Part shown: positions 4,143-47,906 of the stretch, one piece after another
Layout of the letters: the number at the start of each line of letters is the position of its first letter
Numbering within the stretch: position 1 is the stretch's first letter
Assembly: GCF_041821045.1 (NCBI RefSeq)
Contig: NZ_JBGUAW010000003.1
Coordinates: forward strand, 248,001 to 312,000
Direction: 5' to 3'
Source: Thiohalorhabdus sp. Cl-TMA
GTDB lineage: Bacteria; Pseudomonadota; Gammaproteobacteria; Thiohalorhabdales; Thiohalorhabdaceae
DNA: 64,000 bases
Position numbers and translations under genes: made by a program
The notes under the pieces: model-generated
What the model saw: only the letters and a program-made list of their open reading frames with translations
Database searches by the model: none
What the model was told of the DNA's origin: nothing

Positions 4143-4160
4143 AGCTTCCTCCGGCAGGTG

Positions 4161-5414: not shown

Positions 5415-5626
5415 GCCTCCAGGGTATATGGTGCGGCCTGGAGGCCTACCAGGATGGACCCGCATCCCCGTAGGGCCTCGCGGCCTGTTCTCCGCGGCGG
5501 CGGCAACGGCGCGGGGGTGGCGTACCGGCGGGTGTTTGCTGCACATTGCGGATAAAGGTGTCCGGACCGGTGATGCCGGCACCGGGCGCCCGACACCCGG
5601 CGTGAGCCGAAGGACGACAGCCCACC

Positions 5627-6571
5627 ATGAAGACCCTGCTTCTGCTCCTGCTTATCACGCTATCCGAAGCCACCATCGGTGTTTTCGTGAAGCTCGTCGA
5701 TGGCCGGATCCCCATTCAGACCCTCAATTTCTACGCCCTGGCCTTCGCCGCGGCGTTCCTCATGGCGGCCCTGCCGCTGGCCACCGGACAGTCCCCGCGC
5801 TTTCCCCGGGACAATGTTAAGGACACCGTGATCATCGGGGCACTGATTGCCCTGCAGATCAGCGTGTTCAACTTCGCAATGACCCTGGCGCCCATCGCCA
5901 ACGTGGTGATCTTCTGGAGCGTGGCGCCCTTCTTCACCTTTATCTTCTCCGCCGTCTTCCTCGGCGAGAAGGCGCGCAAGAGCTATATCCTGATCTTCGC
6001 CCTGGCCCTTACCGGCATCGTCCTGGCCAAACCGCTCGAGGGGGGCAACATGGCCGGCAACCTCGTGGCGCTGGGCGACGGCGCCATCTATGCGGCCATG
6101 GTCACCTACATGCGCCACGAGGGGAAAACCGAGGCGGGCAACGACATCGCCTGGTCCATGCTGACCGGGGCGCTGCTGCTCTCGCCCGCGCCCTTGCTGT
6201 TTGGTCCGGGCGCCGTCGGGGCCATGATCCCGTACCCCACCCTCGGGGCTTCCCTGCCGGTGATGTTGTGGGCGGCCTGCCTGGGGATCGTCTCCACCGG
6301 CTTCGCCTATTTCGGCATCTCCATCGTCCTGAAGCGACTCCGCGCCAATGCCTACGCGCTCGTCGACATCATCGTCTCTCCGGTGGTGGCCTCCCTGCTG
6401 GGGTATCTGGTCTTCGGCGAGGTGCCCGCCGGGAGCACCATCTACGGGGGAGCTATCCTGCTGGGTGCCGGGTTCTGGCTGACCCTGGAGATGTCGCGGG
6501 GCCGGGAGAGCCAGGCCGTGCATCCCGATCAGTGCGCATCGGGAAGCCGGGCCGTCTCCTCCCGGGCATAG
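5627..6571 (+). CDS. EamA/DMT-family drug-metabolite transporter
   Basis: 314 residues with about ten hydrophobic helices in two EamA repeats, including the conserved run around NFAMTLAPIANVVIFWSVAPFF in repeat 1 and LRANAYALVDIIVSPVVASLLGYLVFGE in repeat 2. Such inner-membrane proteins export or import small metabolites, but the substrate cannot be read from sequence. It is divergent from the glycosidase gene, with about 210 bases between the likely starts holding both promoters. The last ~25 residues are polar and non-conserved. Confidence 0.88.
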   Translation: MKTLLLLLLITLSEATIGVFVKLVDGRIPIQTLNFYALAFAAAFLMAALPLATGQSPRFPRDNVKDTVIIGALIALQISVFNFAMTLAPIANVVIFWSVAPFFTFIFSAVFLGEKARKSYILIFALALTGIVLAKPLEGGNMAGNLVALGDGAIYAAMVTYMRHEGKTEAGNDIAWSMLTGALLLSPAPLLFGPGAVGAMIPYPTLGASLPVMLWAACLGIVSTGFAYFGISIVLKRLRANAYALVDIIVSPVVASLLGYLVFGEVPAGSTIYGGAILLGAGFWLTLEMSRGRESQAVHPDQCASGSRAVSSRA

Positions 6572-6588
6572 GGGTCGGCGGGAACTCC

Positions 6589-6627
6589 TTGACCTGGCCG
6601 TGGTCTCAAGTTTACAACTTGTTGTAA
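6589..6627 (+). promoter_or_regulatory. Putative promoter and dyad operator of the CueR-like gene
   Basis: TTGACC at 6589-6594 could be a -35 element. A perfect inverted repeat, TTACAAC-TT-GTTGTAA (6612-6627), lies 36 bases before the ATG. This position fits autoregulation by the MerR-family protein, although the dyad does not match the classic CueR site. Confidence 0.5.
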
Positions 6628-6662
6628 GGTTGAGGCTCACCGCATAGAGGGGAGGAGTGCCC

Positions 6663-7070
6663 ATGTCCACCATGACCATCGGCCAGCTGGCGGGTGAGCT
6701 GGGGCTGGCCACGGAGACCCTGCGCTACTACGAGCGTCGCGGGCTGGTAATCCCGAGCGGGCGTTCGGGATCCGGCTATCGCCTGTACGGGGAAGACGCC
6801 CGGGAGCGGCTGCGCTTCATCCGCCGGGCGCAGGCCCTGGGCTTCAGCCTCGACGAGGTGGCGGAGCTGCTGGCCATGTCCGACAGTCCCCAAGCCGGCG
6901 CCGGCGAGGTGAAGGCGCTCACCGATAACCGAATCGCCGACATCGAGGCACGGATCCGGGACCTGGAGCATCTGCGCGACGGCCTCAAGGCGCTCTCCGA
7001 GCAGTGTCCGGGGCACGGCTCCACTGCGGACTGCCCCATCCTGAGCGCCCTGAACCGGGACGATGAGTAG
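6663..7070 (+). CDS. cueR: CueR/HmrR-type MerR-family Cu(I)-responsive regulator
   Basis: 135 residues from ATG 6663 (GGAGGAG just upstream), the same length as CueR. The N-terminal winged helix has the MerR signature LATETLRYYERRGLV, followed by a dimerisation helix. Near the C-terminus two cysteines (C115 and C124, in CPGHG...DCPI) match the Cu(I)/Ag(I)-binding loop of CueR, with one extra residue between them. Such proteins twist overlong promoters of copper-export genes when Cu(I) binds. It precedes copA directly and probably controls it. Confidence 0.88.
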   Translation: MSTMTIGQLAGELGLATETLRYYERRGLVIPSGRSGSGYRLYGEDARERLRFIRRAQALGFSLDEVAELLAMSDSPQAGAGEVKALTDNRIADIEARIRDLEHLRDGLKALSEQCPGHGSTADCPILSALNRDDE

Positions 7071-7088
7071 AAGAACCGGAACGTAGTC

Positions 7089-7118
7089 CTGTAGGAGCGA
7101 CCTCCAGGTCGCGATACT
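7089..7118. repeat. REP-like palindrome, copy 1
   Basis: CTGTAGGAGCGACCT-CC-AGGTCGCGA contains a perfect 7-bp stem (7097-7103 / 7106-7112). It has the GTAGGAGCG head and CGCGA tail common to REP elements of gammaproteobacteria. A related copy lies near 22104. Confidence 0.6.
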
Positions 7119-7184
7119 TGAACGGGCACGTTGGGAATTGCTGCTGAATCAATGGGCGGCTTGCTCCCCATGGGAGGGAAACGC

Positions 7185-9704
7185 ATGAAGGAATTGGACC
7201 TCGGCATCGAAGGCATGACCTGCGCCTCCTGCTCCTCGCGGGTGGAGCGGGCCCTGAACAAGCTGGAAGGGGTCTCCGAGGCGAGCGTCAACCTGGCCTC
7301 GGAGCGGGCCACCGTGCGCTTCGACGAGGAGGCGGTGGACGCCGAGCGGATCGCCGAGACGGTTAGCGAGACCGGCTATGCGCCCCTGATCGCAGAATAC
7401 GAGATCGGCGTGGGCGGCATGACCTGCGCCAATTGCTCCTCCCGGGTGGAGCGTAAGCTGAACAAGCTGCCGGGCGTGGTGACGGCCACCGTGAATCTTG
7501 CCACCGAGCGGGCTACGGTGCGCTATTTCCCGGAGACCGTGACCCCGCGGGGCATCGCGGCGACCATCAGCGACACCGGCTACGAGCCCCGGCCTCTGGA
7601 GGAAGAGGCCGGGGAGCAGGATCCCGGGGCGCGGCGCGCCCGCTCGCTGGCAGCCATGCGCCGCGACCTGTGGATCGCGGCCGGACTCACAGTGCCGGTG
7701 CTTTTCCTTGCCATGGGTGCCATGGTGGTGCCGGGACTCCACGAGCTGCTGGCCGCCGCGGAGCCGTGGCCGGGGGCCTGGGATTGGACGCAGCTGGTGC
7801 TCACCACCCTGGTGCTGGCCATTCCCGGGCGGCGCTTCTGGGGACCGGGCCTCCAGGCCTATCGCCAGGGCTCCCCGGACATGAACAGCCTGGTGGCCAC
7901 CGGCGCCGGGGCCGCGTGGCTCTACAGCCTGGGCGTGGTGGTGGCCCCGGGCCTGTTCCCGGCCGAGGCCCGCGGTCTCTATTTCGAGTCCGCAGCGGTG
8001 ATCGTCACCGTGATCCTGTTCGGGAAGTACCTGGAGGAGGTGGCCAAGGGGCGCACCAGCCAGGCCATCCGCAAGCTGGTGGGCCTGCAGGCCAAAAATG
8101 CCCGGGTGCTGCGCGACGGGGTGGAGGAAGAGGTCCCGGTGAGCCGGGTTCAGGTGGGCGATTGGCTCGTGGTGCGCCCCGGGGAGCGGATCCCGGTGGA
8201 CGGCCGGGTTACCGAGGGCAGCAGCTACGTGGACGAATCCATGCTCACCGGGGAGCCGGAGCCGGTGGTCAAGGCCGCCGGCGACGAGCTGGTGGGCGGC
8301 ACCGTGAACCAGTACGGTGTCCTGCAATTGGAGGCTACCCAGGTAGGTAGTGACACGGTGCTGGCCCAGATCATCCGCCTGGTGGAGCGGGCCCAGGGGG
8401 CCAAGCTGCCCATCCAGGGTCTGGCGGACCGGGTGGTCCGGGTGTTCACTCCCGTCGTGCTGGGGGTGGCCGTGCTGACTTTCCTGCTGTGGCTGGCTTT
8501 CGGCCCCGCGCCGGCAATCACCCTGGCCCTGGTGAGCGCGGTGGCGGTGCTGGTGGTGGCCTGTCCCTGCGCCATGGGCCTGGCCACGCCGGCGGCCATC
8601 ATGGTGGGTACCGGGCGGGCGGCCGAGCTGGGCGTGCTGTTCCGCAAGGGCGAGGCCCTGGAGCGTCTCTCGGAGGTGGATACGGCCGTGTTCGACAAGA
8701 CCGGCACGCTCACCGAGGGCCGGCCGCGACTCACCGACTTGGAGACCGCCGACGGCGAAACGGCCGGTGCCCTGCGCCTGGCCGCCGCCGCGGAGGCGGC
8801 CAGCGAGCACCCGCTCGGGGCCGCCGTGCGCGAGGCCGCGGACGGCCGCGGTCTGAATATCCCGGAGGCCGAGGGGTTCGAGGCGGTGCCGGGCCACGGG
8901 GTGCGGGCCGAGGTGGACGGCGCCCGGGTGCTCGTGGGCTCGGCGCGCCTGCTGACGGAGCACGGCGTGGACGCCTCGGCCTGGGCGGGGCGCGCATCCG
9001 CGCTGGCCGGGGCGGGCAAGACCCCCATCTTGCTGGCGGTGGATGATACGGTTCAGGCAGTGCTGGCCGTGGCCGATCCGCTCAAGGCGGAGGCGGCCGC
9101 CGCCGTGGCCGCACTGCGCGAGCGCGGGCTGCGCGTGGCCATGATCACCGGTGACAACCGCGCCACTGCCGAGGCCATCGCCCGGCGCGCGGGCATCGAC
9201 GAGGTGCGCGCGGAGGTGCTGCCCGACGGCAAGGCGGAAGCCGTGGAAGCCATGCAGGGCGCGAGCCGGCGGATCGCCTTCGTGGGCGACGGCATCAACG
9301 ATGCCCCGGCCCTGGCCCAGGCCGAGGTAGGCGTGGCGGTGGGCACCGGAACCGACATCGCCATCGAAGCCGCGGACGTCACCCTGAGCCGGGGCAGTCT
9401 CGACGGGGTGGTCACCGCCCTGGACGTGGCTCGGCGCACCCTGAGTACCATCCGGGGCAACCTGTTCTGGGCCTTCGCCTACAACGTTGTGCTGATCCCG
9501 CTGGCGGCGGGGGTCTTCTACCTGCCGTTCGGCTGGCACCTGAATCCCATGATGGCGGGCGTGGCCATGGGCCTTTCCAGCCTGTTCGTGGTTTCCAACA
9601 GCCTGCGGCTGCGTAGAATGCGTCCGGTCCGGCTTTCCGGGGAAGGGGGGCATGTCCCCGCCGCGGAGCCCGAGGCGGACGCCACGCCGGCGAGGGCCGC
9701 CTGA
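7185..9704 (+). CDS. copA: Copper-exporting P1B-1 ATPase CopA with two heavy-metal domains
   Basis: 839 residues from ATG 7185 (GGAGGG six bases before). Two N-terminal HMA domains carry CASC (C13/C16) and CANC (C81/C84). The membrane metal site is CPC (460-462), the phosphorylation site DKTGT (D504), then SEHPLG and [10 protein letters not shown]. This is the canonical Cu(I) exporter of the inner membrane, fed by the CopZ encoded just downstream. Together with the CPH-type CopB upstream, the locus covers both classes of copper ATPase. An upstream ATG at 7131 is open but has no family support. Confidence 0.95.
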
Positions 9705-34507: not shown

Positions 34508-35422
34508 TTAGCCGAGCACCCTCCGGAAACGCCGGCCGAGCCCCGTCATGAAGGCGAAAACGCCCATGGCGAGAAGGCTCAGAATGCCCGGCTCCGGGAT
34601 CTCCTGGGCGGGACCGTCCGCGCCGTCCTGGCCGGCCTGGCCGTCGGAGACGGGCTCGATGGTGCCCGCAGCCACCGGGAGCACGTCCTTGTACCCGGCG
34701 GTGCCGTCCACCTCGCCGGGGGTGCCGGCACCGTCGTCTTCAGAGGTGCTCAGGCCGTGCAGGATGATCTCCCGCTGTTCCAGGGGCAGCAGGTCGTCCC
34801 GGGTGAAGTCGTTGGCGTAGATGCTCTCGTCGCTGAGGTCGTACACCTCGCTGAAGGAGATGTTGCCGTCCCCGTCGGCGGTGGGGAAAACGGCCTCCTC
34901 ACCGTCCTCCTGATTCTCGGCGGTCTGCTGGCCGTCTTCGCCGTTATCCTCCGCCTCCTGGTTCTGGTTAGTCTGCTGGTTTTGGTTGGCCTCCTGATCC
35001 ATGTTGGCCTGCTGGCCCTGATTCCCTTGCTGATTCTGCGCGGCCTCCTGGCCCTGTCCATTCTGCCCCTGGGTAGTGGTGAGCGGCAGAATGACCGGAC
35101 CGTAGGAGGCGGCTCCTTCCTCCAGCTCAATGAAGCCGTCCCCGTCGGTATCGTCCCCCATTTCCGGAATGGTCGAATCCGTGGGGTTGCCCGAGTCATC
35201 GAACAGGCCGTGGATATGCTGGGGATGGGTCTGGTTCTCCTCCAGCCCTGAGGCATCGATATCCACGCTCAACGAATCCCCGTCCAGATTCATGTTGGCG
35301 CTACCGTTCACGCCGGAATCGTTCAGGGGCTGCAGGTCGGCGCTGTACGGCACGCCCCAGGCGATGGCCGGGGCGGTCAACAGGACAACGCCGAAAAGAC
35401 CGAGCTGTTTCGAACTGGTCAT
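34508..35422 (-). CDS. Secreted CHRD-like protein with EF-hand loops, Q/N-rich linker and PEP-CTERM-like tail
   Basis: 304 residues from ATG 35422 (AAGGAG). Order: signal peptide (1-23), CHRD-like domain (ADLQPLNDSG... HPQHIHGL), a good EF-hand loop DTDGDGFIELEE, a ~45-residue linker mostly Q, N, E and G, a second weaker loop TADGDGNISFSE, then IPEPGILSLLAMGVFAFMTGLGRRFRR. The last part is a PEP-type sorting signal: PEP, hydrophobic helix, basic tail. It should be exported and possibly processed by an exosortase, with calcium binding outside the cell. No exosortase is in the window. Confidence 0.75.
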   Translation of the reverse strand: MTSSKQLGLFGVVLLTAPAIAWGVPYSADLQPLNDSGVNGSANMNLDGDSLSVDIDASGLEENQTHPQHIHGLFDDSGNPTDSTIPEMGDDTDGDGFIELEEGAASYGPVILPLTTTQGQNGQGQEAAQNQQGNQGQQANMDQEANQNQQTNQNQEAEDNGEDGQQTAENQEDGEEAVFPTADGDGNISFSEVYDLSDESIYANDFTRDDLLPLEQREIILHGLSTSEDDGAGTPGEVDGTAGYKDVLPVAAGTIEPVSDGQAGQDGADGPAQEIPEPGILSLLAMGVFAFMTGLGRRFRRVLG

Positions 35423-35907
35423 TGGTCCACTCCTTGGTTTGAAAGAGGCCTTATACGTCCAATGTGCAGGGCCCTGCTCCCCATATTCCGCAACACATGT
35501 GCCAAACGGATTCCGGCTGGGAATAACAAGGATTTGTGTAAAAAGGCGCGGCACCGGGACGCGCAGGGTAAAAAAGGCGAACACCCGGGGCAGCCGGGCT
35601 TCGCTTCCGGGCATGGGGTATTAACGCTTCATATTTTTCATGTTTTTCCGATCGGCGGTTCCGATTCGGTTGACGGGGTGGGGTGCACGGGGCAGGTAAA
35701 GATGTAAAGGTGATTGACCCCGGAATCCGGGGCTCGGATACGGCGGACTCCCGAGGCTGTGCCGCGGAGTAGTGCCCGGGAGGAGGTAAATGGGCCGATC
35801 AGAAGGCATTGCCGGGTGGGGAATGACCCGCACGGGTCGCCGGGTGCCGCATGGCGCCGACGGTAACGGCGATAAACAATCGGCGGTTCCGGGGAAGGGA
35901 CCGGGAC
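35423..35907. other. Intergenic region without a gene
   Basis: About 485 bases between the CHRD gene start and the HiPIP terminator. It is less GC-rich near 35520-35660. It should hold the CHRD promoter on the minus strand. No convincing coding frame was seen. Confidence 0.4.
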
Positions 35908-35959: not shown

Positions 35960-36229
35960 CTAGGAGCTGGGCTTATACAAGGCGCACCAGCCGTCCGGAG
36001 CGATGCGTCCCTTCACCCGCCCGCAGGTGTAGGCGCCCTGCCAGAACTGGCATTCGGAACACTGCTGCCCGCTTTTCGGGGAATCCTGATAGGCGGCCGC
36101 CTCCTTGGTCACCTTGGTGGTGGCCCGCGCCGGTACGCCCGTCAGGCCCAGACCGGCGCATGCCGCCGCGGTCCGGAGAACGTGCTCCAGGAAACGCCGA
36201 CGGGGAACGGGGCGGTCTTTCTTGCGCAT
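35960..36229 (-). CDS. High-potential iron-sulfur protein (HiPIP), Tat-exported
   Basis: 89 residues from ATG 36229 with GGAGGAAG upstream. A twin-arginine signal (RRRFLEHVLRT, hydrophobic stretch to about residue 36) precedes a mature ~53-residue protein. Cluster cysteines are C57, C60, C69 and C82 (x2, x8, x12 spacing), with the typical GWCALY near the end. HiPIPs carry electrons in the periplasm between the bc1 complex and reaction centres or terminal oxidases in purple and sulfur bacteria. The gene is monocistronic with its own terminator. Confidence 0.93.
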   Translation of the reverse strand: MRKKDRPVPRRRFLEHVLRTAAACAGLGLTGVPARATTKVTKEAAAYQDSPKSGQQCSECQFWQGAYTCGRVKGRIAPDGWCALYKPSS

Positions 36230-36923
36230 GGGGCTTCCTCCATGGGGCAACTGTGCCGCCGGTCCGTGGGGCCGTCCGGGCCTTTTGCCGGGCCGTAACG
36301 CGGTCTCTACGGGTGGGCCTGGCAGGGTCGGGCCACGAGGGGGCCGGAGGGCGGCGGAGGAAACCGAGGCCCATACCCGGGGAAACCGGGCAAGGACCGG
36401 TCCGTCCCGAACCGGGTACCTTTCGGGGCGAACGGAGGCGGCGTGGGCCGGTTGCCGGGCGGGTGTCGGTCCGCGGGGCGCAGGCGCGGGATGTCCGCGC
36501 CGAGGAGGCCCATCCGCCCGGCGAACGGAGGACAGGACCGTTCGCCGGGAAGGGAATGCGGGAAGCAGGGTGTGGGGGACCCATGTCGCTCCCTCTTGCT
36601 GGGAATGTTGCCTTCCGGGGACGCCAAGCATACGGCATGCCCAAATAAAAAGAGCTTCCATATCAGTAGGCTGCAGAATGGACGCGGCGTGGCGGGGAAC
36701 CAAGTGTAAAGAAAACCGACCACCAAGGAGGCTTCCGACGGGGGCTGATATCCGGGCTTTACAGACACGGAGCGCGGAGCGGGCGGACACCCGATGAGGG
36801 AGACCGTAGCCGCGGACAGCGGAGGGCCGGTCGGGCGCTTCCGGCCGGTTCGGTCCCCGCCGCGTTGCCTTCCTCGCATCGGGCGTTCCATGGTTGGAGG
36901 GGGATTCAGCTTGGGAGGGGATC
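36230..36923. other. 694-base region without a convincing gene
   Basis: Several GC-driven frames cross it on both strands, but none has a ribosome site with a recognisable protein. It should contain the HiPIP promoter on the left and the YceI promoter on the right; an AT-rich patch lies at 36640-36730. Confidence 0.4.
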
Positions 36924-37787
36924 ATGCGTGTTTCCGGAGTGTGTGCGGCGGCCCTCCTGGGGGGGCTACTGTTGGCGGGCTGCGGGGCCCGGGAAGGACC
37001 GCGAATCCATGCGGTGGAAGGGCCGCCGGAGGCCTTCCCCGCGCCCGCGTACAGGCAGGCGCTCCGGGCGGGGAAGCGGGTTTACCGGGTGGACCCCTGC
37101 CTCTCTCGGGTCACCATACGCGTCTCTGCGGGCGGACCGCTGGCCGAGCTGGGCCATAACCACGTGGTCTCGACCCGGGAGCTGCACGGCTACGTGCTGG
37201 ATCCGGCGGCTGGCGGGTCGGGGCGGACGGATATCTACGTGCCGGTGACCGCGCTTGAGGTGGACAAGCCCCGCCTGGTGGAGGAAGCGGGCTTCGACAC
37301 GGAGCTCTCCGAGCAGGAAAAGGCCCAGACCCGCTACAACATGCTGGCGGAGGTGCTGGAAGCCCATAAGTATCCCTATGTGCGGATCCACGCCACGCCG
37401 GCACCGGATTCCCCCACGCCGCCCGAGGCCCTGACCGTTGACCTGACCATTCACGGGGAGACCCAAACCAGGCGCGTACCCGTCCGGATGCGGCGCACGG
37501 AGGATTGGCTGGAAGTGCGGGGCCGGCTCTCCGTGCGACACGAGGACTTCGGCATGGAGCCCTTCACCGCGCTGGCAGGGCAGCTGCGGGTCAAGGAGGA
37601 GCTGGATCTGCGCTTCCTGGTCCACGCGACGGTCGTGGAGCGGTGGAACGGGGCCGGTGCCGGCTCCGTCCTGGAGGGCGGGGCCAGGCGCTGCACCGTG
37701 GGCGGAGTCGTGGAGACGGTGCCAGCGTGGCCCGAGGGCACCGCCGGAGCGGCTCCGGGCTCAATCGAAGGTGGGCAGCCCCAGTAG
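36924..37787 (+). CDS. YceI-like lipoprotein
   Basis: 287 residues from ATG 36924 (GGGAGGGG). A lipobox LLLAGC ends a lipoprotein signal at about residue 20. The YceI lipocalin-like barrel starts at VYRVDPCLSRVTIRV and includes ELGHNHVV, then DLTIHGETQTRRVPV and VRHEDFGMEPF. YceI proteins bind isoprenoid lipids in the periplasm. An extra C-terminal ~50 residues rich in Gly/Ala extends beyond the fold. Its 3' end overlaps the convergent kaiC by 27 bases. Confidence 0.85.
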   Translation: MRVSGVCAAALLGGLLLAGCGAREGPRIHAVEGPPEAFPAPAYRQALRAGKRVYRVDPCLSRVTIRVSAGGPLAELGHNHVVSTRELHGYVLDPAAGGSGRTDIYVPVTALEVDKPRLVEEAGFDTELSEQEKAQTRYNMLAEVLEAHKYPYVRIHATPAPDSPTPPEALTVDLTIHGETQTRRVPVRMRRTEDWLEVRGRLSVRHEDFGMEPFTALAGQLRVKEELDLRFLVHATVVERWNGAGAGSVLEGGARRCTVGGVVETVPAWPEGTAGAAPGSIEGGQPQ

Positions 37788-39239
37788 GCTGGTGCCCGAT
37801 CCCTGGACCGGGCCGCCTATGCGGAGTCCGCGCTCCGTCACCGTGAAGGTGCGAACCGCCTTGTCCTGATTGGAGCCCCGCATCTTGAGCACCGCCAGTC
37901 CCCGGTGGATTGCCCCCTCCTGCTCCAGGTAGCGCAGCAGCACGATGGTATCGGTCATGCTCGACACCTGATCCTCGGAGACCGACGAGCCGCCCTGGAT
38001 GTTATTGGTGTTGGTGGTGAACAGGGCGGTGATGCCCTGCTCGCGGAGGAAGGCCACCAGCGCGATGACGAACTCGCGGAAGCTCCGCTGGCTGGAAATG
38101 CGCTCCAGGGCGGAGAGGCTGTCCACCACCACCCGCCGGGGGCGCCGGGCTTCCAGCAGGTGCTTGATGCGGATCAGGTGGTCCTCCAGGCTGGCGGTTT
38201 CGGGATAGGCGGCCGAGATGCGGAGCCGCCCGCCGGCCTCCAGATCCTCCAAGGGCATGCCCCAGCCTCGGGCGTTGCGCCGGAGCTGGTCCGCCCCCTC
38301 CTCGAAGGCCAGCAGCAGCGCGGATTCCTCCGGAGCGCCGTTCAGGAAATGGGTGCTGATGAGGGTCTTTCCGGTGCCGGTGGGGCCGGCAACCAGCGTG
38401 ATGGAGCCCTCCAGGAGTCCGCCGTCGCACATACGGTCCAGCTCGGTGTCGCCGAAGGAGGTGCGCGCGCCGGAGGCGGGCCGGTTGAGCTCGATGGCGG
38501 AGAGCGGAACCACGGAGAGCCCGCCCGCTTCCGCGCCGATGGTGAAGGGATACTCCCCCGTCCGGTGGGAGGTGCCGCGCATCTTGAGGACCTCCAGGGT
38601 CCGGCGCCGCTTCTCCCCCTCCAGGCCGTTGCGGAGCAGCACCACCGAATCGGCGACGAACTCCTCCACCTGGAAGCGGGCGATGGGGCCATACTCTTCG
38701 GTGCGCTCTGCGGTGACCAGGGTGGTGATGCCCATGTCCCGAACCGCCGCCATCAGGCGTCCCAGCGCCCGGCGAACCATCTGCTGGTCGCTGAACTGGG
38801 AGAACAGGCTGCCCAGGCTATCCACCACCAGCCGCCGGGCCCCCACCCGGTCCACGGCGTGGCGCAGCCGCGGCAGGAGGGCGCCCAGGTCGAAGCTGCC
38901 CGTTACCGATTCCTCGTCCATGCCGGGGGCCAGATCCACGAAGGCCCACTGCCCGCTTTCCTCCCACTCGGCCACGGGCCAGTCCAGGGCGGCGAGATTG
39001 GCGCGGATGGCCGCCGGCGGCTCCTCGCAGGTGACGAAGACCCCGGGCTCCTCCCGGCGCCGGATCCCCTCGGCAAGGAACTGGGCACAGAAGACCGTCT
39101 TCCCGCTTCCCGAGGAGCCGGCCACCAGGGTCGCCCGACCGCTGGGCAGGCCGCCGTCGGAGATGAACTCGAAGCCCGGGATATCCGTTGGGAACTTGCA
39201 TACCGCCTGCCCGGCGGTGCCGGGGGAAGCTTCAGCCAT
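37761..39239 (-). CDS. kaiC: KaiC-family circadian-clock-type ATPase
   Basis: 492 residues, two RecA-like domains. CI has Walker A GSSGSGKT and the catalytic Glu pair in [11 protein letters not shown] has GPTGTGKT and LAFEEG. The autophosphorylation pair of cyanobacterial KaiC (Ser431/Thr432) corresponds to S426/S427 in QVSSMTDT, so both acceptors are serines. The C-terminal A-loop region used by KaiA is short. kaiB overlaps it by eight bases; no kaiA was seen. A timer or stress-type Kai system is likely, not a proven clock. Confidence 0.93.
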
Positions 39240-39540
39240 GGGGGTCCGCTCCGTTGTGGGGGCCGTGCAGAGGGCGCAGGTCCAGGCCCAGAAGGACCTG
39301 GTCCTTGTCCGACAGGTCCCCGATTACCCGGCGCAGGGGCGTCGGGAGCTCCTTGATCAGGGTCGGAGTGGCCAGGATTTTCTCGTCCTCGGCAAGCTGG
39401 GGCTTCTCGAGAACGTCGATGATCTCCAGCTCGTAGCGGCCCGCCAGCTCCTCGTCCATGATGCGCCGCAGGTTCGCGACGGCCTGCTGGGAGTGCTGGG
39501 TGGGTCCGGTGATGTAGAGCTTGAGCAGGTATTTCTCCAT
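39232..39540 (-). CDS. kaiB: KaiB-like protein
   Basis: 102 residues with the KaiB thioredoxin-like pattern: [29 protein letters not shown], then [31 protein letters not shown]. KaiB switches fold to bind KaiC CI and slow it. The gene lies nine bases after the GGDEF-EAL gene and overlaps kaiC, so sensor, KaiB and KaiC are one transcript. The C-terminus has a short Gly/His tail. Confidence 0.93.
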
Positions 39541-39549
39541 GGAGCCTTC

Positions 39550-42021
39550 CTACCGGCTGGCGGGATGCGTGTCGGGGGAGTACGGATGATCCGGGCTGCG
39601 GAGGTGCTCGATCAAGGGCCCCTGGGGCATGGGTCTGGCGAACAGGAATCCCTGGGCGAAATCGCAGTTTTCCAGCGCGAGGCAGGAGGCCTGGGCCCGG
39701 GTCTCCACCCCTTCCGCCAGCACGGAAAGGCCCAGGCCGTGGGTCATGGCGATGATGGCCCGCACCAGGGAGCGATTCTCTGCGGAGTCGGGGAGGTCGC
39801 GTACGAAGGACAGGTCGATCTTCACCAGGTCGAAGGGCAGCTGGCGAAGGAAGGTGAGGGCGGAGTAGCCCTTGCCGAAGTCGTCCATGGCGATATGCAG
39901 CCCGCGACGGCGGAGCTGGGACAGTATGCGCACCGATTCCCGGATGTCGCCCGTGACGCCGGACTCGGTGAGCTCGATGCCCAGGCGGTCCCCGGAGATC
40001 CCCTCCTCCCGGAGGACCCGGTCCACCAGCCCCACCAGGTCTCCCGACACCAACTGCTGGGCGGAGACGTTGACCCAGACCCGGTCCACGCCTACTCCGG
40101 CCCGGTCCCATTCCCGGAGATCCGTGCAGACCTGGTGGAGGACCCATTCGCCCACGGAATGGATGAGTCCGGTTTCCTCCAGCAGGGGGATGAACTCGCC
40201 CGGCGAGACCATGCCGTGCTCCGGTGCTTCCCAGCGGAGGAGTGCCTCCAGGCCCTTCAGGCCGCCGTCGGCGAGGGAGACCTGGGGCTGGTAGAAGACC
40301 CGGAATTCGCCCTGGGTCTCCGCTCGCCGCAGGCCCTGCTCCAGTCGGAACCGACGCGAGGCCGCCTTTCCCTGGTCCGGGACGAAGGTCTGGATCTGGC
40401 TGCGTCCGGAGCCCTTGGCCTCGTACATGGCGGTGTCCGCCCGCATGAGCAGGGTCTCGGGGTCCCGGCCGTCATCGGGATAGAGGCTGACACCGATGGT
40501 GCCCGCGGGGGTGATCTGGTTGCCCTCGATGTCCATGGGGGAGGCCAGGCTGTCGCGGAGCTTTTCCGCCACCGCCAGGGCGTCCTCCCGGGTTTCCACA
40601 CCCTCGAGGATGATGGTGAACTCGTCGCCGCTCATGCGCGCGACGGTGTCCATGGCGCGGGTGCCGTCCCGCAGCCTGCGGGCCACCTCGCGGAGTAGCT
40701 GGTCCCCGGCGGCGTGCCCGAGGGTATCGTTGACCTCCTTGAAACGGTCCAGGTCCAGGAAGAGCACCGCGAGGCGCGATCGGCCCTCCCGTGCCCGTTC
40801 CAGGGCGGATTCCAGGGCCCCGCGGAAGCTGGTGCGGTTGGGAAGGCCGGTAAGGTCGTCGTGGTAGGCCTGGTAGCGGGCCGCTTGCTCGGCCCGCTGG
40901 CGCTCGGTGACATCGTGGAAGGTCACCAGGAAGGCGCTGCCCCCGCCCCATACCGTGGGCTGGAAGCTGATCTCCGCCACGCCGGCGCTGCCGTCCTTGC
41001 GGCGGATGTCGATCTCCGTGCTCCGGCCGGATACCACGGGGATGCCCAGGGGCGTTCCCTCCAGCTCCTCGGCGCTGCGGTTCATGAGCTGCTGCGCGGC
41101 GGGGTTGGTGAACAGGATGCCCCCGTTCTGGTCGTCCACCACCATCATCCCGGTCTGGGACTGGGTGATGAGCTCGCGGATCTCCCGGAAGGTGCCCTGG
41201 AGCCGCTCGGCCATGCGGTTCAGGCTGTCGGCCAGGTCGCCGATCTCGTCGTTACCGTTCTCCTCGGCGCGCAACTCCAGGTTGCCGCGGCCCCATTCCT
41301 GGGCGACGCCGTTCAAGCGGTGCAGCCGGCCCAGTATGCGCCAACGGACCAGGAGAAAGACCGTGAGCCCGGCCAGCAGGACCATGCCCAGCGCATAGCC
41401 GATGGCGTTCCAATAAGTCTCGCTCAGCTGGGTCTTCGCCGTCTCCAGGGTGGTGCTCACCCGGACCACGCCCAGCACGGAGCGGTCCGAATAGCCGTGG
41501 CAGCTCTCGCAGGCGGGCTCATTGACCAGGGGAAAGAGGTAGTCGATGCGGCCTTCTTCCCAGCGGGCCCGGCTTACCCGCTCCCCCTTCAAGGCGCTCT
41601 GAAGAAGCGCATCGGGGAGGTCGGTTGGGGTCTTCCCGGGCCGGGCCGGCCTGGTGAAGGCCTCCCCGCCCAAGTAGGCGTTGACCCGCCGCAGGGTCTG
41701 GCGGTCCCGGAAGGCCAGCTTTCCGCCGGGCCGCAGGACCTGAATGCTTTCCAAAGAGGGATGGGTGCGTGTCTCCGCCAGCCACTCCCGCACAAGCTCC
41801 GCATTTCCAGTGAGCAGGAGGCTGTGCAGGCTCGAAACCATGCCCTTCTCGAAGCCTTGCAGATGATGGCGCTTTTCGCCGATGACGGTGCTCTGGTACA
41901 GGGTATGCAGCAGGAGGAGCCCGATGGCGAGGAGGACGCCCAGTACCAGGGAGAGGGTGAGGGCGAATCGGGCGCTGAGCCGGGACCAGTACCGCCGGCC
42001 GGAGGAAGAACGCGTAAGCAA
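39550..42021 (-). CDS. Membrane sensor with haem c motif, HAMP, PAS, GGDEF and EAL domains
   Basis: 823 residues. A first membrane helix (~20-42) and a second (~215-235) flank a periplasmic domain with CESCHGYSD, a CxxCH haem c site as in DUF3365-type redox sensors. Then come HAMP, PAS (near 290-400), GGDEF with the site written MSGDEF instead of GGDEF, and EAL with EALLRWEAP, the DDFGKGYSAL loop and late metal ligands. The GGDEF change SGDEF still permits activity in some enzymes; the EAL residues look competent. It controls c-di-GMP and shares a transcript with kaiB and kaiC. Confidence 0.92.
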   Translation of the reverse strand: MLTRSSSGRRYWSRLSARFALTLSLVLGVLLAIGLLLLHTLYQSTVIGEKRHHLQGFEKGMVSSLHSLLLTGNAELVREWLAETRTHPSLESIQVLRPGGKLAFRDRQTLRRVNAYLGGEAFTRPARPGKTPTDLPDALLQSALKGERVSRARWEEGRIDYLFPLVNEPACESCHGYSDRSVLGVVRVSTTLETAKTQLSETYWNAIGYALGMVLLAGLTVFLLVRWRILGRLHRLNGVAQEWGRGNLELRAEENGNDEIGDLADSLNRMAERLQGTFREIRELITQSQTGMMVVDDQNGGILFTNPAAQQLMNRSAEELEGTPLGIPVVSGRSTEIDIRRKDGSAGVAEISFQPTVWGGGSAFLVTFHDVTERQRAEQAARYQAYHDDLTGLPNRTSFRGALESALERAREGRSRLAVLFLDLDRFKEVNDTLGHAAGDQLLREVARRLRDGTRAMDTVARMSGDEFTIILEGVETREDALAVAEKLRDSLASPMDIEGNQITPAGTIGVSLYPDDGRDPETLLMRADTAMYEAKGSGRSQIQTFVPDQGKAASRRFRLEQGLRRAETQGEFRVFYQPQVSLADGGLKGLEALLRWEAPEHGMVSPGEFIPLLEETGLIHSVGEWVLHQVCTDLREWDRAGVGVDRVWVNVSAQQLVSGDLVGLVDRVLREEGISGDRLGIELTESGVTGDIRESVRILSQLRRRGLHIAMDDFGKGYSALTFLRQLPFDLVKIDLSFVRDLPDSAENRSLVRAIIAMTHGLGLSVLAEGVETRAQASCLALENCDFAQGFLFARPMPQGPLIEHLRSPDHPYSPDTHPASR

Positions 42022-42240
42022 GCCCGGCCCTTCCCTGTGGAGCTATAAAAGGGGTTTCGCGAGAACCTATCGGAACCTGCCGATCTGCGCAATTCCCTTA
42101 TGCGGTTACGAAGGGTTTCGTAGAAACGGGCCGGTGACAGGGAAGCGAACCAGGGCTCCGGTAACAACTTCCGGCGGGTGCCCGGGAAACGGGGTGCGGA
42201 CTCCGGCACGGGCCCGGGCCCCGGCTCATAGGTGCTGGAG

Positions 42241-42268
42241 TCCGTGGCCGGCATGGAGCCGGCCACGG
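42241..42268. terminator. Strong hairpin between two minus-strand genes
   Basis: CCGTGGCCGGC-ATGGA-GCCGGCCACGG forms an 11-bp stem just past the stop of the small secreted protein. There is no T-run, so it is a possible terminator or RNA stabiliser. Confidence 0.45.
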
Positions 42269-42279
42269 TACCGTCCTGC

Positions 42280-42789
42280 TCAGGGAAAACGCCGGGTTCC
42301 CCAGCGCAGGGTGAGGAGGGCCCCTACGAGAAGCGCCACCACGGCGGGATCCAGCAGGCTGCTCATCCCCCAACGGTTGCCGGTGGCCGCTTGCCCCTGC
42401 CCGGGGGCCCGGGCAGGGGCCGCCGAGCCCGGTCCTTCGCGCGTCCGCCCCGTGCTTTTCCGCTCCATGCGGGCCGAGAGGCTGAAGGATTGCCCCGCCT
42501 CCCGCGGCGGTCCGGCACCGGGGGCGGCATGCGCGGATCCGGAATTTTCCCCATCCCGTCGCCTGTTGGAAACAAGGATCCGTTCCTTGGAGCCCGGGGA
42601 CATGCTTTCGCGGCCCCGGGATTGCCGGGAATGGACCGGTGGCTGGGCGGCTTGCGCCATGCTGTCGCCATGGGCAGACGGATTTCCCGCAGAGGCCGCG
42701 AAAACGGTCGCGGGTGCGGCGAGCAGAACGATGGCCGGAACGAGCGATAGCGTGTAACCAACGGATGCAGCGGAATATTTTGCAGACAT
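42280..42789 (-). CDS. Hypothetical secreted protein with signal peptide and C-terminal membrane anchor
   Basis: 169 residues. The N-terminus is signal-like (YTLSLVPAIVLLAAPATVFA-A), the middle ~105 residues are polar, low in hydrophobics and rich in Ser, Arg, Gly and Pro, and the end is LLDPAVVALLVGALLTLRW with a short RRFP tail. The layout recalls proteins with C-terminal sorting or anchor signals. A GGGGGG run precedes the ATG. No family recognised; the gene call rests on this layout and on spacing. Confidence 0.5.
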   Translation of the reverse strand: MSAKYSAASVGYTLSLVPAIVLLAAPATVFAASAGNPSAHGDSMAQAAQPPVHSRQSRGRESMSPGSKERILVSNRRRDGENSGSAHAAPGAGPPREAGQSFSLSARMERKSTGRTREGPGSAAPARAPGQGQAATGNRWGMSSLLDPAVVALLVGALLTLRWGTRRFP

Positions 42790-42972
42790 GGATTCCCCCC
42801 GCCTTTCGGGATACCTCGGTCCCTACCCCGGAAGCTGCATCAGGCGTTCCTTTTTGGTTTCCGTAAATTTTTCAGGACGCTGTTCCGGGACGGCGGGCCC
42901 CATGGGAAAAGTCTGTCAATTCCGTCGACGGGACAGTCCGGAATTTCGCGGCGTGGAGGGAGGCGGGTCCAT

Positions 42973-43000
42973 TTGTCTGTCGGATGGGGCCCTCTATAAT
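42973..43000 (+). promoter_or_regulatory. Sigma-70-like promoter
   Basis: TTGTCT, a 16-base spacer and a perfect TATAAT. It lies 31 bases before the GTG of the CheX-like gene and overlaps the ATG at 42999, which argues against that ATG as a start. Confidence 0.7.
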
Positions 43001-43031
43001 GCCGGGCGCGCCCTTAGCACTCGAGGCCCAC

Positions 43032-43631
43032 GTGGGAACTTCTTCCGACCTCCTTCCGGAACCGGAAGCCATCGCCGAATACCTTTCCGCCAGCCTGGGC
43101 ACTCCCTCGGAGGTCCTGGGGCCGGAGCTGTGGGTGCTGTACAAGCTCAAGCAGGCGGCGCGCCGCTCCGGCGGGGTGCTGGCGGTGCCCCTCTACAATC
43201 TGGAGGGAGAGGAGGCGGTGGAGCTGGGCTGGATGGCCATCGGCATCCGCATGGCCGTGGCCATCGGCGGCACCATGGTCCGCGACCCCAACCTCCGGGA
43301 GAAGGTGGGCTTCAACCAGACCGACGAGCTGCTGATGGACGCCGCGCAGGAAACCCTCAACATCGTCAGCGTGGCCTTCAACCAGAAGCTGGAGACCCTG
43401 GGCTGGCACAGCGGCATCCGCACCGGGACCATGGAGATGCTCTCCCCCGAGGAGCTGGACAGGCAGGTGCTGCGGACGGGGGAGGGCGTGCTGTCCGGTC
43501 TCTATATCCTGCGCTTCCCGAAGCTCAACCTGCCTTCCTGGACCAAGCGACTGGGATCGCTGGGAATCGCCTTCCACTGCGACCCGGAGCAGGGGCCGCG
43601 GCCCCTGATCATGCGGTCCGGCGATGAATAG
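43032..43631 (+). CDS. CheX/CheC-like putative phosphatase
   Basis: 199 residues from GTG 43032 (GAGG five bases before). No close family was recognised, but ELLMDAAQETLNIVSVAFN contains the D-x3-E-x2-N signature of CheC/CheX/FliY phosphatases, placed on a helix after a strand-rich segment as in that fold. The remaining sequence (IRMAVAIGGTMV...) is compatible. It would dephosphorylate a response regulator. It is followed after 27 bases by the PilZ-like gene. Confidence 0.6.
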   Translation: MGTSSDLLPEPEAIAEYLSASLGTPSEVLGPELWVLYKLKQAARRSGGVLAVPLYNLEGEEAVELGWMAIGIRMAVAIGGTMVRDPNLREKVGFNQTDELLMDAAQETLNIVSVAFNQKLETLGWHSGIRTGTMEMLSPEELDRQVLRTGEGVLSGLYILRFPKLNLPSWTKRLGSLGIAFHCDPEQGPRPLIMRSGDE

Positions 43632-43658
43632 CATCCCGCCCGGCAGAAAGTCATTCCC

Positions 43659-44276
43659 ATGAGCGATTCCCGGAGGGAGCGCCCTTTCCCGGCGAACGAG
43701 CTGCGGATGCTGGCGGAACGGGTCCACGAGGGGTCCCTCAGTCCCGGGGCCGTGGACTACCTCCTTTCCGCGGCGGGGCGCCTGGAGGAGCTCCTGGCCT
43801 ACCGCCCGGGTGGGGGGCCGGTTCCGGAGGCGGGCGAGCCCTCCTCCGGGGCGGTGGAGAGCCTGGCCGACCTACAGGACCGGCTCGGCGCGATCGGCGA
43901 CCGGGCGGCTGGCGCGGGCGCCGATCCGGCTGTAACGGAATACCTGCGGACCGTGCTCCTGCGGGCCACTCTCCTTCACCAGCAGGAGCCCCCGGATATG
44001 CGTCTGGTTCCCCGCTTTCCCGAGACGCGGCCCGCCCGGGTGCATCCCGCCGGGGGCTCTACCCTGGACGCGCTCCTGGTGGACCGCTCCGCCCTGGGGT
44101 TCGGTCTTCGCGCCGGGGAGCCGGTTGCCGAGGGTCAGCTGGCGACCCTGGAGCTGCCGCCCGTGGCGGACGCCGAGGCGGAAGTCCATGAGTGCCTGGT
44201 GATCTTCTGCCGGGAAACCGAGCCCGGGGTGCTCCGGGTCGGCCTGGATGTGGTGGATGGGGACTGTGCGGGCTAG
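43659..44276 (+). CDS. PilZ-like domain protein
   Basis: 205 residues. The N-terminal ~125 residues look helical. The C-terminal part has RLVPRFPETRPARV followed by LLVDRSALGFGL, matching the RxxxR and D-x-S-x-x-G elements of PilZ c-di-GMP receptors. Its neighbours are the CheX-like protein (same operon) and a divergent GGDEF-EAL sensor about 1.6 kb away. Binding of c-di-GMP is inferred from these motifs only. Confidence 0.6.
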   Translation: MSDSRRERPFPANELRMLAERVHEGSLSPGAVDYLLSAAGRLEELLAYRPGGGPVPEAGEPSSGAVESLADLQDRLGAIGDRAAGAGADPAVTEYLRTVLLRATLLHQQEPPDMRLVPRFPETRPARVHPAGGSTLDALLVDRSALGFGLRAGEPVAEGQLATLELPPVADAEAEVHECLVIFCRETEPGVLRVGLDVVDGDCAG

Positions 44277-44411
44277 CAAGTCCCGGCAGGGCCGCCCTTT
44301 TTTCCTCCCAGAATCGGCGTATCCCCCTTCCCTGGCTCGGCATCCTGCACCAAAGTGGGATACCCGTTCGAAGTGCCGTGACCGAACACGCACCCCTTTG
44401 GTAGGAATCCC

Positions 44412-47400
44412 ATGAGCGACGATCCCATCCGTTTCGACGGACTCTCCTATAACGACCTCCGCGGACCCGCCGGTCTGCAGCGCCTGGACGAGCGTTTCCG
44501 CGTGCACCTGGAGCAGCAGGACCCGGAGCTGCTGCGGCGCTTGGTGGATTTCCGCCAGGCGGCGAGCACGCCGCCCGCGCTGGAGCACAGCCAGCTCCTG
44601 CTGGACCTCGCCCCGCACGTGGAGGCCTTCATCGCCGCGCTGTTCGGCATCGACGCAGCCACCCGGGAGGCCGGCGTGGCCACGGCGGCGCAGAATCCCC
44701 CCTTCGCCTTTCAGCAGGAGGTGGTGCAAAAGCGCACCAAGCGCCTGTGGGGGAAGGTGGAGGAGGACTTCGCCGACCTGGATGCCTGGCTGGACGATCG
44801 GCTGAAGGCGCATGGTATCGACCGCGCCGACCGCGAGCTGGCGGTGGGCGAGCTCACCGTGGCCCTGGCGGCGGACCGCAAGGCCAACAAGGCGGAGCTG
44901 GACCGGCTGGCGGCCTGGGCGGTGCGCGCCCGCGAGACGGAAGAGGGCCGGGCCGTCACCGGCGACTGGGTGAGCTTCCGCACCCCCGACCGGGTGGACG
45001 TGGACCACCTGGTGCCGGTACGCAAGGCCACGGACAAGTCCCCCAACGCGGTGGAGTCCCCCGGCCGCTTCCGGGCGCGGGACGGCTTCGAGCTCACCGA
45101 TCCGCGCATGTCCGCCCGAGAGGCCCAGGGGGAGGTGAACTACTGCATCTACTGTCACGACCACGACGGCGACTTCTGCTCCAAGGGCTTTCCCGAGAAG
45201 AAGGGACAGCCGGAGCTGGGCTTCAAGGTGAGCGCCATCGGCAACACGCTGCACGGCTGTCCGCTGGAGGAGAAGATCTCCGAGATGGACCTCCTCAAGC
45301 GGGACGGCTACACCATCGCGCCGTTGGCGACGGCCATGGTGGACAACCCCATGGTGCCCGCCACCGGGCACCGCATCTGCAACGACTGCATGAAGTCCTG
45401 CATCTTCCAGAAGCAGCAGCCGGTGAATGTCCCGCAGATCGAGACCCGGGTGCTCACGGATGTCCTGGATCTGCCCTGGGGCGTGGAGGTGTACGACCTG
45501 CTCACCCGCTGGAATCCCCTCCGCCACGAGCAGTACGTGCAGAAGGCCTACAACGGCAAGAAGGTGCTGGTGGCGGGCATGGGCCCCGCCGGCTTCACCA
45601 TGGCCCACCACCTGACCATGGAGGGCTGCGCGGTGGTGGGGGTGGACGGCCTCAAGATCGAGCCCCTGCCGGAGGAGTTCCGCGACCGCCCTATCCGTGA
45701 CTACGCCGAGCTGGAGGAGCCCCTGGACCGCCGCATCAACTACGGCTTCGGCGGGGTGGCCGAGTACGGCATCACGGTGCGCTGGGACAAGAACTTCTTA
45801 AAGCTCATCTACCTGACCCTGGCGCGGCGGGAGACCTTCCAGGTGTTCGGCGGCGTGCGCCTGGGCGGCACCCTGACGCTTGAGGACGCCTGGGCCCTGG
45901 GCTTCCATCACGTCTGCAACGCCAGCGGAGCTGGGCTGCCGCGGGTCATCCAGATGGGCAACAGCCTGGCGCGGGGCATGCGCCAGGCCAACGACTTCCT
46001 CATGGCCCTGCAGCTCACCGGTGCCGCCAAGCAGGAGAGCCTGGCCAACCTCCAGGTGCGCCTGCCGGCGGTGGTGATCGGCGGCGGCCTCACCGCCATC
46101 GACACCGCCACCGAGCTGCAGGCCTACTACATCCAGCAGGTGGAGAAGGCCCTGGACCGCCACGAGCGCCTGGCCGCCGTCTACGGCGAGGAGTCCCTCT
46201 GGGAGAAGCTGGACGAGGAGAACGCCGGCATCCTGGAGGAGCTCCTGGCCCACGGCCGGGCGGTGCGGGCGGAGCGCGAGCGGGCCGCGGCGGAGGGGCG
46301 CAAGCCGGACTTCCTGCCCCTGCTGCGCGAATGGGGCGGGGTGACGGTGGCCTATCGCCGGCCCATGAACGAGTCCCCCTCCTACAAGCGCAACCACGAG
46401 GAAGTGGTCAAGGCGCTGGAGGAGGGTATCTACTTCGAGGAGCGCCTGGAGCCCATCCACGCCGTCCTGGACCGCTTCGGGCACGTGCAGTCCCTGCAGT
46501 TCCGGCGCCGGCGCGACCCCCAGGGCAAGCCCCTTTCCGTGCCGGAGGACGTGGAGCTGCCGGCGCGGGGTATCTTCGTGGCGGCCGGAACCGTGCCCAA
46601 CACCATCTACGAGCGGGAGCATCCCGGCACCGCGGAGCTGGAGGACAACCACTACCGGCCCTACGTCCACCACCGCCACGAGCTCCAGGCGGTGGATACG
46701 CCGCAGCACTGCAAGGAGGAGGAGTTCGGGCCGTTCACCTCCTATCGGGCCGACGGCCGGTACATGACCTTCCTCGGCGATACCCACCCCGCCTTCTCGG
46801 GCAGCGTGGTGAATGCCATCGCCTCCGGGCTGCGCACCTATCCCCACGTCATGACCGCCCTGCGCGACCAGGGGCCGGTGGAAGCCGACTGGGTGGCGTA
46901 TCGGGCCTTCCGGGAGCGCATGGAATACATGCTCGCCCCGCGGGTCTCGTCGATGGACGCCAGTCATCCGGCAGTGGTGGAGCTGCGGGTGCGCGCCCCC
47001 ATGGCCGCGCGCAACTTCCGGCCGGGGCAGTTCTTCCGCATGCAGACCTTCGAGAGCCACGTGCCCAAGGTGGCGGACACGCGCCTCCAGGTGCCGCTGC
47101 AGACGGTGAGCGGCGCCGGCGTGGAGGGGGACCTGATGCGCCTGTTCGTGCTCAAGGGCGGCATCGGCGGCCGCCTGTCGGCGCGTCTCAAGCCCGGCGA
47201 TCCCCTGGTGCTCATGGGCCCCACCGGCGCGCCCACGGAGATGGGCTCGGGCAAGACCATCATGGTGGTGGCCGGGCGCTGGGGGGCGGCGGTCATGCTG
47301 GCCCTGGGCCCCGCCCTGCGCGCGGCCGGCAATCGGGTGATCTATTTCGGCGCCTTCCGCCGGGCCGAGGAGCCGTATTACCGGGAGCAGCTGGAGGCGG

Positions 47401-47906
47401 CCACGGACCAGATCGTCTGGGCCACCGCCGACGGCGAGCCCATCCCCGCGAGCCGGCCACAGGACATCAGCGTTTCCACCGGGGACGCGGTGGACCTGAT
47501 TCGCCGCTATGGCGACGGCGAGCTGAGCGGCCCCGAGGCACCCCACCTGCCCCTGGGAGAGGTGGACGAGGTGCTGGTCATGGGCTCCACCGGACTGCTC
47601 TACGGCATGCAGCAGGCCCTTTCCCCGGACGGGGCCCTGGCGCCGTATTTCCGGGAAGGGGTGGAGATCCAGGGCACCGCTGGCAGCCCCATGCAGTGCA
47701 TGCTCAAGGGCGTGTGCTCGCAGTGCCTGCAGTGGCAGGTGGACCCGGAGACGGGCCGCCGTACCCAGACCGTGTTCTCCTGCGCGGAGCAGGACCAGCC
47801 CCTCCTGGCCCTGGATTTGGAGAACCTTTGGGCCCGCCAGACCCAGAACCGGCTCCCGGACATGATGGCCGATCTGTGGCTCAATCACCTCCTTGAGGGA
47901 GAGTAG
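44412..47906 (+). CDS. Single-chain GltD-like plus PyrK-like flavoprotein (Nfn-like fusion)
   Basis: 1164 residues. Order: helical N-terminal region (1-~235); an Fe-S segment with YCIYCHDHDGDFC (C near 246), GCPLEEKI and CNDCMKSC as in GltD; a GltD-type FAD/NAD(P) domain (VLVAGMGPAGFTMAH, later VVIGGGLTAIDTATEL) with a long helical insert around 570-640; then, from about residue 845, a ferredoxin-reductase/PyrK-like FAD and NAD half (FRPGQFFRMQTF) ending in CMLKGVCSQC...FSC, a [2Fe-2S] site. The parts match NfnL/NfnS joined in one chain. It probably shuttles electrons between NAD(P)H and ferredoxin. The pntA/B genes lie about 1.5 kb downstream. Confidence 0.85.
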   Translation: MSDDPIRFDGLSYNDLRGPAGLQRLDERFRVHLEQQDPELLRRLVDFRQAASTPPALEHSQLLLDLAPHVEAFIAALFGIDAATREAGVATAAQNPPFAFQQEVVQKRTKRLWGKVEEDFADLDAWLDDRLKAHGIDRADRELAVGELTVALAADRKANKAELDRLAAWAVRARETEEGRAVTGDWVSFRTPDRVDVDHLVPVRKATDKSPNAVESPGRFRARDGFELTDPRMSAREAQGEVNYCIYCHDHDGDFCSKGFPEKKGQPELGFKVSAIGNTLHGCPLEEKISEMDLLKRDGYTIAPLATAMVDNPMVPATGHRICNDCMKSCIFQKQQPVNVPQIETRVLTDVLDLPWGVEVYDLLTRWNPLRHEQYVQKAYNGKKVLVAGMGPAGFTMAHHLTMEGCAVVGVDGLKIEPLPEEFRDRPIRDYAELEEPLDRRINYGFGGVAEYGITVRWDKNFLKLIYLTLARRETFQVFGGVRLGGTLTLEDAWALGFHHVCNASGAGLPRVIQMGNSLARGMRQANDFLMALQLTGAAKQESLANLQVRLPAVVIGGGLTAIDTATELQAYYIQQVEKALDRHERLAAVYGEESLWEKLDEENAGILEELLAHGRAVRAERERAAAEGRKPDFLPLLREWGGVTVAYRRPMNESPSYKRNHEEVVKALEEGIYFEERLEPIHAVLDRFGHVQSLQFRRRRDPQGKPLSVPEDVELPARGIFVAAGTVPNTIYEREHPGTAELEDNHYRPYVHHRHELQAVDTPQHCKEEEFGPFTSYRADGRYMTFLGDTHPAFSGSVVNAIASGLRTYPHVMTALRDQGPVEADWVAYRAFRERMEYMLAPRVSSMDASHPAVVELRVRAPMAARNFRPGQFFRMQTFESHVPKVADTRLQVPLQTVSGAGVEGDLMRLFVLKGGIGGRLSARLKPGDPLVLMGPTGAPTEMGSGKTIMVVAGRWGAAVMLALGPALRAAGNRVIYFGAFRRAEEPYYREQLEAATDQIVWATADGEPIPASRPQDISVSTGDAVDLIRRYGDGELSGPEAPHLPLGEVDEVLVMGSTGLLYGMQQALSPDGALAPYFREGVEIQGTAGSPMQCMLKGVCSQCLQWQVDPETGRRTQTVFSCAEQDQPLLALDLENLWARQTQNRLPDMMADLWLNHLLEGE

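Follow-up and report, generated by a model that had tools for sequence, protein, structure and literature searches.

Two neighboring genes of Thiohalorhabdus sp. Cl-TMA appear to join a divergent CheX-type CheY~P phosphatase (ORF1), an assignment that we make with moderate confidence from sequence comparison, to a protein that is PilZ-type by descent (ORF2), for which the case is good though indirect. We read the pair as a unit by which chemotaxis or motility output may be damped or redirected, and give this explanation, taken as a whole, an even chance of being right. The genes lie in a window of 64,000 nt, the whole stretch of DNA that was analyzed (assembly GCF_041821045.1, contig NZ_JBGUAW010000003.1, positions 248,001 to 312,000 of the forward strand); the features discussed are collected in Table 1.

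Table 1. Features of the ORF1/ORF2 unit and of the neighboring Kai unit (positions within the window).
Feature	Positions	Strand	Basis or remark
Promoter-like site, sigma-70-type, TTGTCT-16-TATAAT	42973..43000	+	10/12 positions
ORF1, remote CheX-like, 199 aa	43032..43631	+	GAGG before GTG, paralogue start alignment, GC3 0.90
D-x3-E-x2-N putative phosphatase motif, ORF1	43338..43361	+	residues 119-126, ATG numbering
ORF2, PilZ-like, 205 aa	43659..44276	+	own-genome relatives; relatives match Pfam PilZ
R-x3-R motif, ORF2	44001..44015	+	both Arg invariant in 6/6 members
D-x-S-x2-G motif, ORF2	44082..44099	+	D, S, G invariant in 6/6 members
Small ORF, no family, between ORF1/ORF2 unit and GGDEF-EAL gene	42280..42789	-	
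GGDEF-EAL protein of neighboring Kai unit	39550..42021	-	Pfam EAL 1.1e-69, GGDEF 3.8e-49
KaiB	39232..39540	-	Pfam KaiB 3.4e-28
KaiC	37761..39239	-	Pfam KaiC ATPase 1e-109; NCBIfam PRK09302 above cut-off

An earlier note on this DNA had described two ORFs with CheX-like and PilZ-like motifs, and both exist. Read from 43032, ORF1 has a GC content of 0.67/0.43/0.90 at the three codon positions, which resembles that of KaiC and of a 1164-aa gene in the same window; the antisense frame that overlaps ORF1 has 0.88/0.44/0.68. The two ORFs are spaced by 27 bp on the same strand, and we infer that they are co-transcribed as a two-gene transcription unit. The promoter-like site is the sole match of its kind in 42200-44500, where shuffles average 0.1, and no terminator-like site was found in the same interval (shuffles mean 1.9). 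The note had also announced a clear promoter shared by both genes; a promoter-like site is indeed present, but the ATG start at 42984 sits inside it. This ATG, rejected as the start of ORF1, falls between the -35 and -10 boxes and cannot start a protein on this promoter's transcript because TATAAT ends at 43000. The overlap therefore points to the in-frame GTG at 43032 as the likely start: GAGG stands a few bases upstream, the product has 199 residues, and the position aligns with the start of the paralogue P0001. We take this GTG as the most likely start of ORF1.

The motif of ORF1 contains, as E123 and N126 (ATG numbering), the E-x2-N pair looked for in CheX and CheC, a pair that CheX requires for phosphatase activity (PMC3510030). 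Recognition of a possible remote CheX by motif has a precedent in the Campylobacterota (PMC9321776). All three residues D, E, and N are kept in P0001, and E and N are also aligned in two members of a bridging family introduced below. Taken alone, the motif is weak evidence, as is the PilZ motif of ORF2: among 20,000 shuffles of ORF1, 2.0% contain D-x3-E-x2-N and 5.6% the looser [DS]-x3-E-x2-N, and among 20,000 shuffles of ORF2, 1.8% contain the PilZ pattern. Family searches place neither copy: for ORF1, Pfam and NCBIfam give nothing at E up to 1 and a PDB sequence search nothing at E up to 10; for P0001, Pfam gives nothing at E up to 10 and NCBIfam a single match at the level of chance (HtpG, 0.24); and both are without a Pfam CheC or FliY match. 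A standard CheX was rejected for ORF1, since neither it nor P0001 gives a significant Pfam CheX match. In further PDB searches, L014 matched nothing at E up to 10, and the alignments A3 and A2 each gave a single match at the level of chance (0.25 and 1.3, respectively). A single-sequence AlphaFold model of ORF1 has a mean pLDDT of 36.3, too poor to judge the fold.

The sole close relative of ORF1 that we found is P0001, a 179-aa protein of the same genome (G000:C7) that is 44% identical (42% in the genome search). Close relatives outside this genome were found neither in the 55 others of 56 relatives nor in the 368 others of 369 genomes of the class; two pattern scans of genome contigs and one of viral contigs, which rest on a few short peptides and which divergent relatives could escape, yielded none, and a tblastn search with P0001 against plasmids yielded no relative. 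The setting of P0001 is a flagellar and chemotaxis one: Its gene follows that of FlgM (Pfam 1.2e-8) at 50 bp and is convergent with the CheB gene (1.6e-50) on its other side, in a region that also carries FlgI, a rod-binding protein, an MCP, a CheW-PilZ protein, CheA (by domains), a single receiver protein, a 301-aa ORF after this receiver that by eye is CheR, and a sigma factor with Pfam sigma-70 regions, which we take to be FliA. Among three genomes of the genus, no CheZ passed its cut-off (best 0.29, G000:C9), and neither did any Pfam CheX (PF13690; best 0.60, another place on C7); at E 0.001 Pfam CheX has no place in G000. FlgI and the CheX-like pair both occur in G000 only, that is, in the same one of three genus genomes. 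Within the genus, the family thus tracks the flagellum, in a sample of three genomes of which one is 82% complete. On this view, a lineage-restricted CheX-type protein would be present in two copies, one between flgM and cheB and a second, divergent one, which is ORF1. P0001 probably replaces the missing CheZ, with hydrolysis of CheY~P carried out by the Glu and Asn of E-x2-N. Separately, the CheW-PilZ fusion of this flagellar chemotaxis cluster (L007:3397-4218) is a more direct candidate for a link of c-di-GMP to chemotaxis in this genome.

The connection of ORF1 to CheX itself comes from remote profile comparisons. When 398 genomes of the phylum were searched with a profile of ORF1 and P0001 (A1), 32 non-self matches, all weak, came up at E up to 1. 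Seven of them were read: Four are CheX-like proteins beside a receiver gene (G473, G493, G385, G376), and three are not CheX-like, namely a repeat-rich frame (L011) and two that by eye are orotidine decarboxylase (L013, L019); G385 and G376 were chosen for covering the same part of the profile, and four in seven is no fair rate. The four bridging proteins moreover count as one event because they are related to each other. Three of them have a Pfam-CheX place less than 2 kb away, and the two scanned against Pfam CheX gave 0.069 and 0.007. In the reverse direction, a profile of the four (A5; L084-L087) was searched over the 398 genomes, and its top match beyond its own strong members is P0001 at E 0.0187; E-values are per genome, and this value over 398 genomes is therefore not significant alone. 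ORF1 is absent from the list of this reverse search, and nine of its 54 weaker places coincide with Pfam-CheX places. The bridging family (L084-L087, loci L088-L117) has strong A5 matches in many genomes, in other classes of the phylum.

Profile-profile alignment with hhalign gives a graded picture. A1 against the bridging four scores 34.4 with 52.5% probability, which 0/200 column shuffles reach (best 25.0), but since it was their match to the profile that led to the choice of the four, the shuffles understate chance. Against an enlarged bridging set of 16 (those of 30 loci that passed the motif filter) the score is 28.3 with 16.1%, equalled by 1/300 shuffles. Against 20 Pfam-CheX proteins it is 19.9 with 1.8%, which is noise level and exceeded by 2/200 shuffles; this comparison set comes from 30 loci, 23 of which yielded an ORF that passed the motif filter, and the 20 ORFs no longer than 200 aa entered the alignment. 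The bridging four match the Pfam-CheX proteins at 68.7% and the enlarged set of 16 at 58.6%. Throughout the comparisons of ORF1/P0001, the bridging proteins, and Pfam-CheX, the Glu and Asn of E-x2-N line up. Alignment is confined to the surroundings of the E-x2-N helix: about 50 residues for the bridging family and about 30 for CheX.

With the CheX family (PF13690; the CheC/CheX/FliY CheY-P phosphatases), ORF1 and P0001 share E-x2-N in a predicted helix region and, for P0001, the place in a chemotaxis cluster; they differ from it in falling below every curated score, in being longer (179-199 aa), and in aligning round the motif only. The bridging family, whose CheX-like domain is N-terminal and whose genes adjoin a receiver gene, is their profile neighbor in both search directions. 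It differs in its C-terminal CBS domains (in one long member scanned; two others are alike by eye), in belonging to other classes of the phylum, and in being 15-19% identical to ORF1 (two members aligned). The CheX reading is plausible and improved by the context of P0001, and it falls short of membership; what the earlier note had called CheX-like is supported only by the remote profiles and by the chemotaxis cluster of P0001, not by Pfam or by the direct comparison with CheX, which is at noise level.

The same data bear on two other views of ORF1. That it belongs to an unrelated fold, a lineage-specific family of flagellar accessory proteins in which E-x2-N is coincidental, would agree with the frequency of the motif among shuffles, with the lack of any credible family match, and with profile scores that are weak and variable; since the weak two-way matches nevertheless hit the same helix, in CheX-like proteins adjoining receivers, we hold this to be unlikely, though a competitor of some substance. 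Alternatively, ORF1 may be CheX-like by descent and have lost the phosphatase, serving as a scaffold or binding to ORF2, a receiver, or the motor switch. The shortness of the aligned stretches speaks for such a loss, but neither copy has lost E or N, and we consider it rather improbable.

For ORF2, the evidence is one of homology. R-x3-R is a c-di-GMP-binding motif and D-x-S-x2-G a motif of PilZ domains; ORF2 has the former and then the latter in its C-terminal half, as the PilZ domain (PF07238) does, and R115, R119, D142, S144, G147, and G149 are invariant in all six aligned members of its family. It differs from that domain in lying below detection and in an N-terminal half that is common, as searched, only to the family of its own lineage. 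Its own genome holds two relatives (E 6.1e-14 and 1.3e-11) and a third, weak match (E 0.008, L006). The congener G001 holds four, the closest of which (G001:C11) is 41% identical and at the syntenic place. Neither ORF2 nor this closest congener relative has a Pfam match, but four of the seven family members scanned reach E 0.01 or better with Pfam PilZ (6.5e-7, 4.9e-6, 0.0034, and 0.0065), the first two exceeding the curated cut-off. A PDB sequence search with ORF2 found no match at E up to 10, and its single-sequence AlphaFold model (mean pLDDT 40.2) is too poor to judge the fold. With hhalign, ORF2 and the congener relative match five PilZ proteins, two of them from ORF2's own family, at 86.9% and a score of 40.2 (best of 200 shuffles 21.3); against the three outside its family there is no alignment (0.1%). 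The PilZ-like character claimed for ORF2 is supported by this homology, even though ORF2 itself is without a Pfam match. Judging from its two motifs, ORF2 probably binds c-di-GMP. One of the congener's PilZ-type relatives (L035, G001:C10:303000-316000, 6371-6793; Pfam PilZ 0.0034) is directly followed, at 6815-9214, by what looks by eye like the gene of a PilB-like ATPase with a receiver-like domain at its end.

The explanation that we prefer joins these two assignments: ORF2 would sense c-di-GMP as a PilZ-domain protein, ORF1 would dephosphorylate a receiver whose gene lies elsewhere in the genome, and the likeliest joint role would be that chemotaxis or motility output is damped or redirected at high c-di-GMP. 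An extension of this explanation, not exclusive of it, would include the neighboring Kai unit: Kai would set the activity of the GGDEF-EAL protein, ORF2 would read c-di-GMP, and ORF1 would act as phosphatase, giving a clock- or stress-timed control of motility. The two units are about 1 kb apart in this genome, and the GGDEF-EAL gene stands directly before kaiB-kaiC. That kaiBC units with GGDEF/EAL genes occur in non-cyanobacteria is already published (PMC3164672), and the unit at 37761-42021 has an arrangement of this known kind; the words CheX and PilZ are absent from that paper's main text. The level of c-di-GMP alters the clock of a cyanobacterium (PMC13001216), and the idea is therefore not absurd, only unsupported here. 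Among the literature matches listed, no title suggests a KaiC-PilZ or KaiC-CheX link.

Conservation of the neighborhood does not support the common circuit of phosphatase, c-di-GMP output, and Kai/GGDEF-EAL unit that the earlier note had suggested. We compared 14 proteins of the window with a 17-kb stretch of the congener G001: Seven match in conserved order, ORF2 included, and the conserved flanks comprise the protein of 34508-35614 on one side and the 1164-aa protein with transhydrogenase-like genes (by eye) on the other. Identity to the congener is 84-85% for the three genes compared on this latter side, the 1164-aa oxidoreductase and two of the transhydrogenase-like genes, and 51-70% for others in the stretch. 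The remaining seven, namely KaiC, KaiB, the GGDEF-EAL protein, ORF1, the small ORF, and the ORFs 35960-36925 and 36894-37787, have no match at E 1e-3 in this stretch, and KaiB was not found in the G001 genome; the congener keeps the PilZ gene without the CheX-like gene, Kai, or GGDEF-EAL in these 17 kb. A second GGDEF-EAL - KaiB - KaiC unit of the same gene order lies elsewhere in the Cl-TMA genome (L051, G000:C3:96000-110000, about 3426-8028), with a KaiC 52% identical to that of the window. At E 1e-4, neither ORF1 nor ORF2 has a match near this unit (14 kb) or in the GGDEF-KaiB-KaiC unit of G002 (L050), an 8.7-kb contig whose end is reached by KaiC. A conserved neighborhood of ORF1/ORF2 with a Kai unit was seen neither in the one congener stretch compared nor at the two other Kai units.

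Within the window, the ORF1/ORF2 unit and the GGDEF-EAL/Kai unit are divergent in that they lie on opposite strands; they are not immediate neighbors but are separated by the small ORF. The latter has its top Pfam match at 0.083, below the cut-off, and tblastn at E 1e-3 does not find it in the 17-kb stretch of the congener; only its C-terminal end, about 20 residues, looks similar by eye to a small ORF in the equivalent position there. On the other side, the 1164-aa protein (44412-47906) is glutamate-synthase-beta-like (NCBIfam PRK06567, 562 bits, below the cut-off), has a reductase-like C-terminal part, precedes the transhydrogenase-like genes, and is 85% conserved in the congener. A receiver profile, with its positive control found, was run against the 582 window frames of at least 60 aa and detects no receiver domain. 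Given the congener that has ORF2 and both flanks alone, the Kai units elsewhere, the intervening ORF, and the lack of a receiver, we regard the inclusion of the Kai unit as very improbable.

The widest form of the explanation that we prefer would be that a new CheX-type family, so far known from one genome, has replaced CheZ, that its second copy has joined a c-di-GMP receptor, and that c-di-GMP, possibly set by Kai/GGDEF-EAL, drains phosphate from a receiver; we think this distinctly unlikely. A flagellated bacterium without a recognizable CheZ must still end the CheY~P signal, and the ORF1/P0001 family is a testable candidate for this task: an orphan in the right place and with the right motif. 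If the fold of ORF1 is not that of CheX, the two genes are an ordinary orphan pair; if ORF1 is such a phosphatase, its pairing with a PilZ gene would wire c-di-GMP directly to the decay of the chemotaxis signal.
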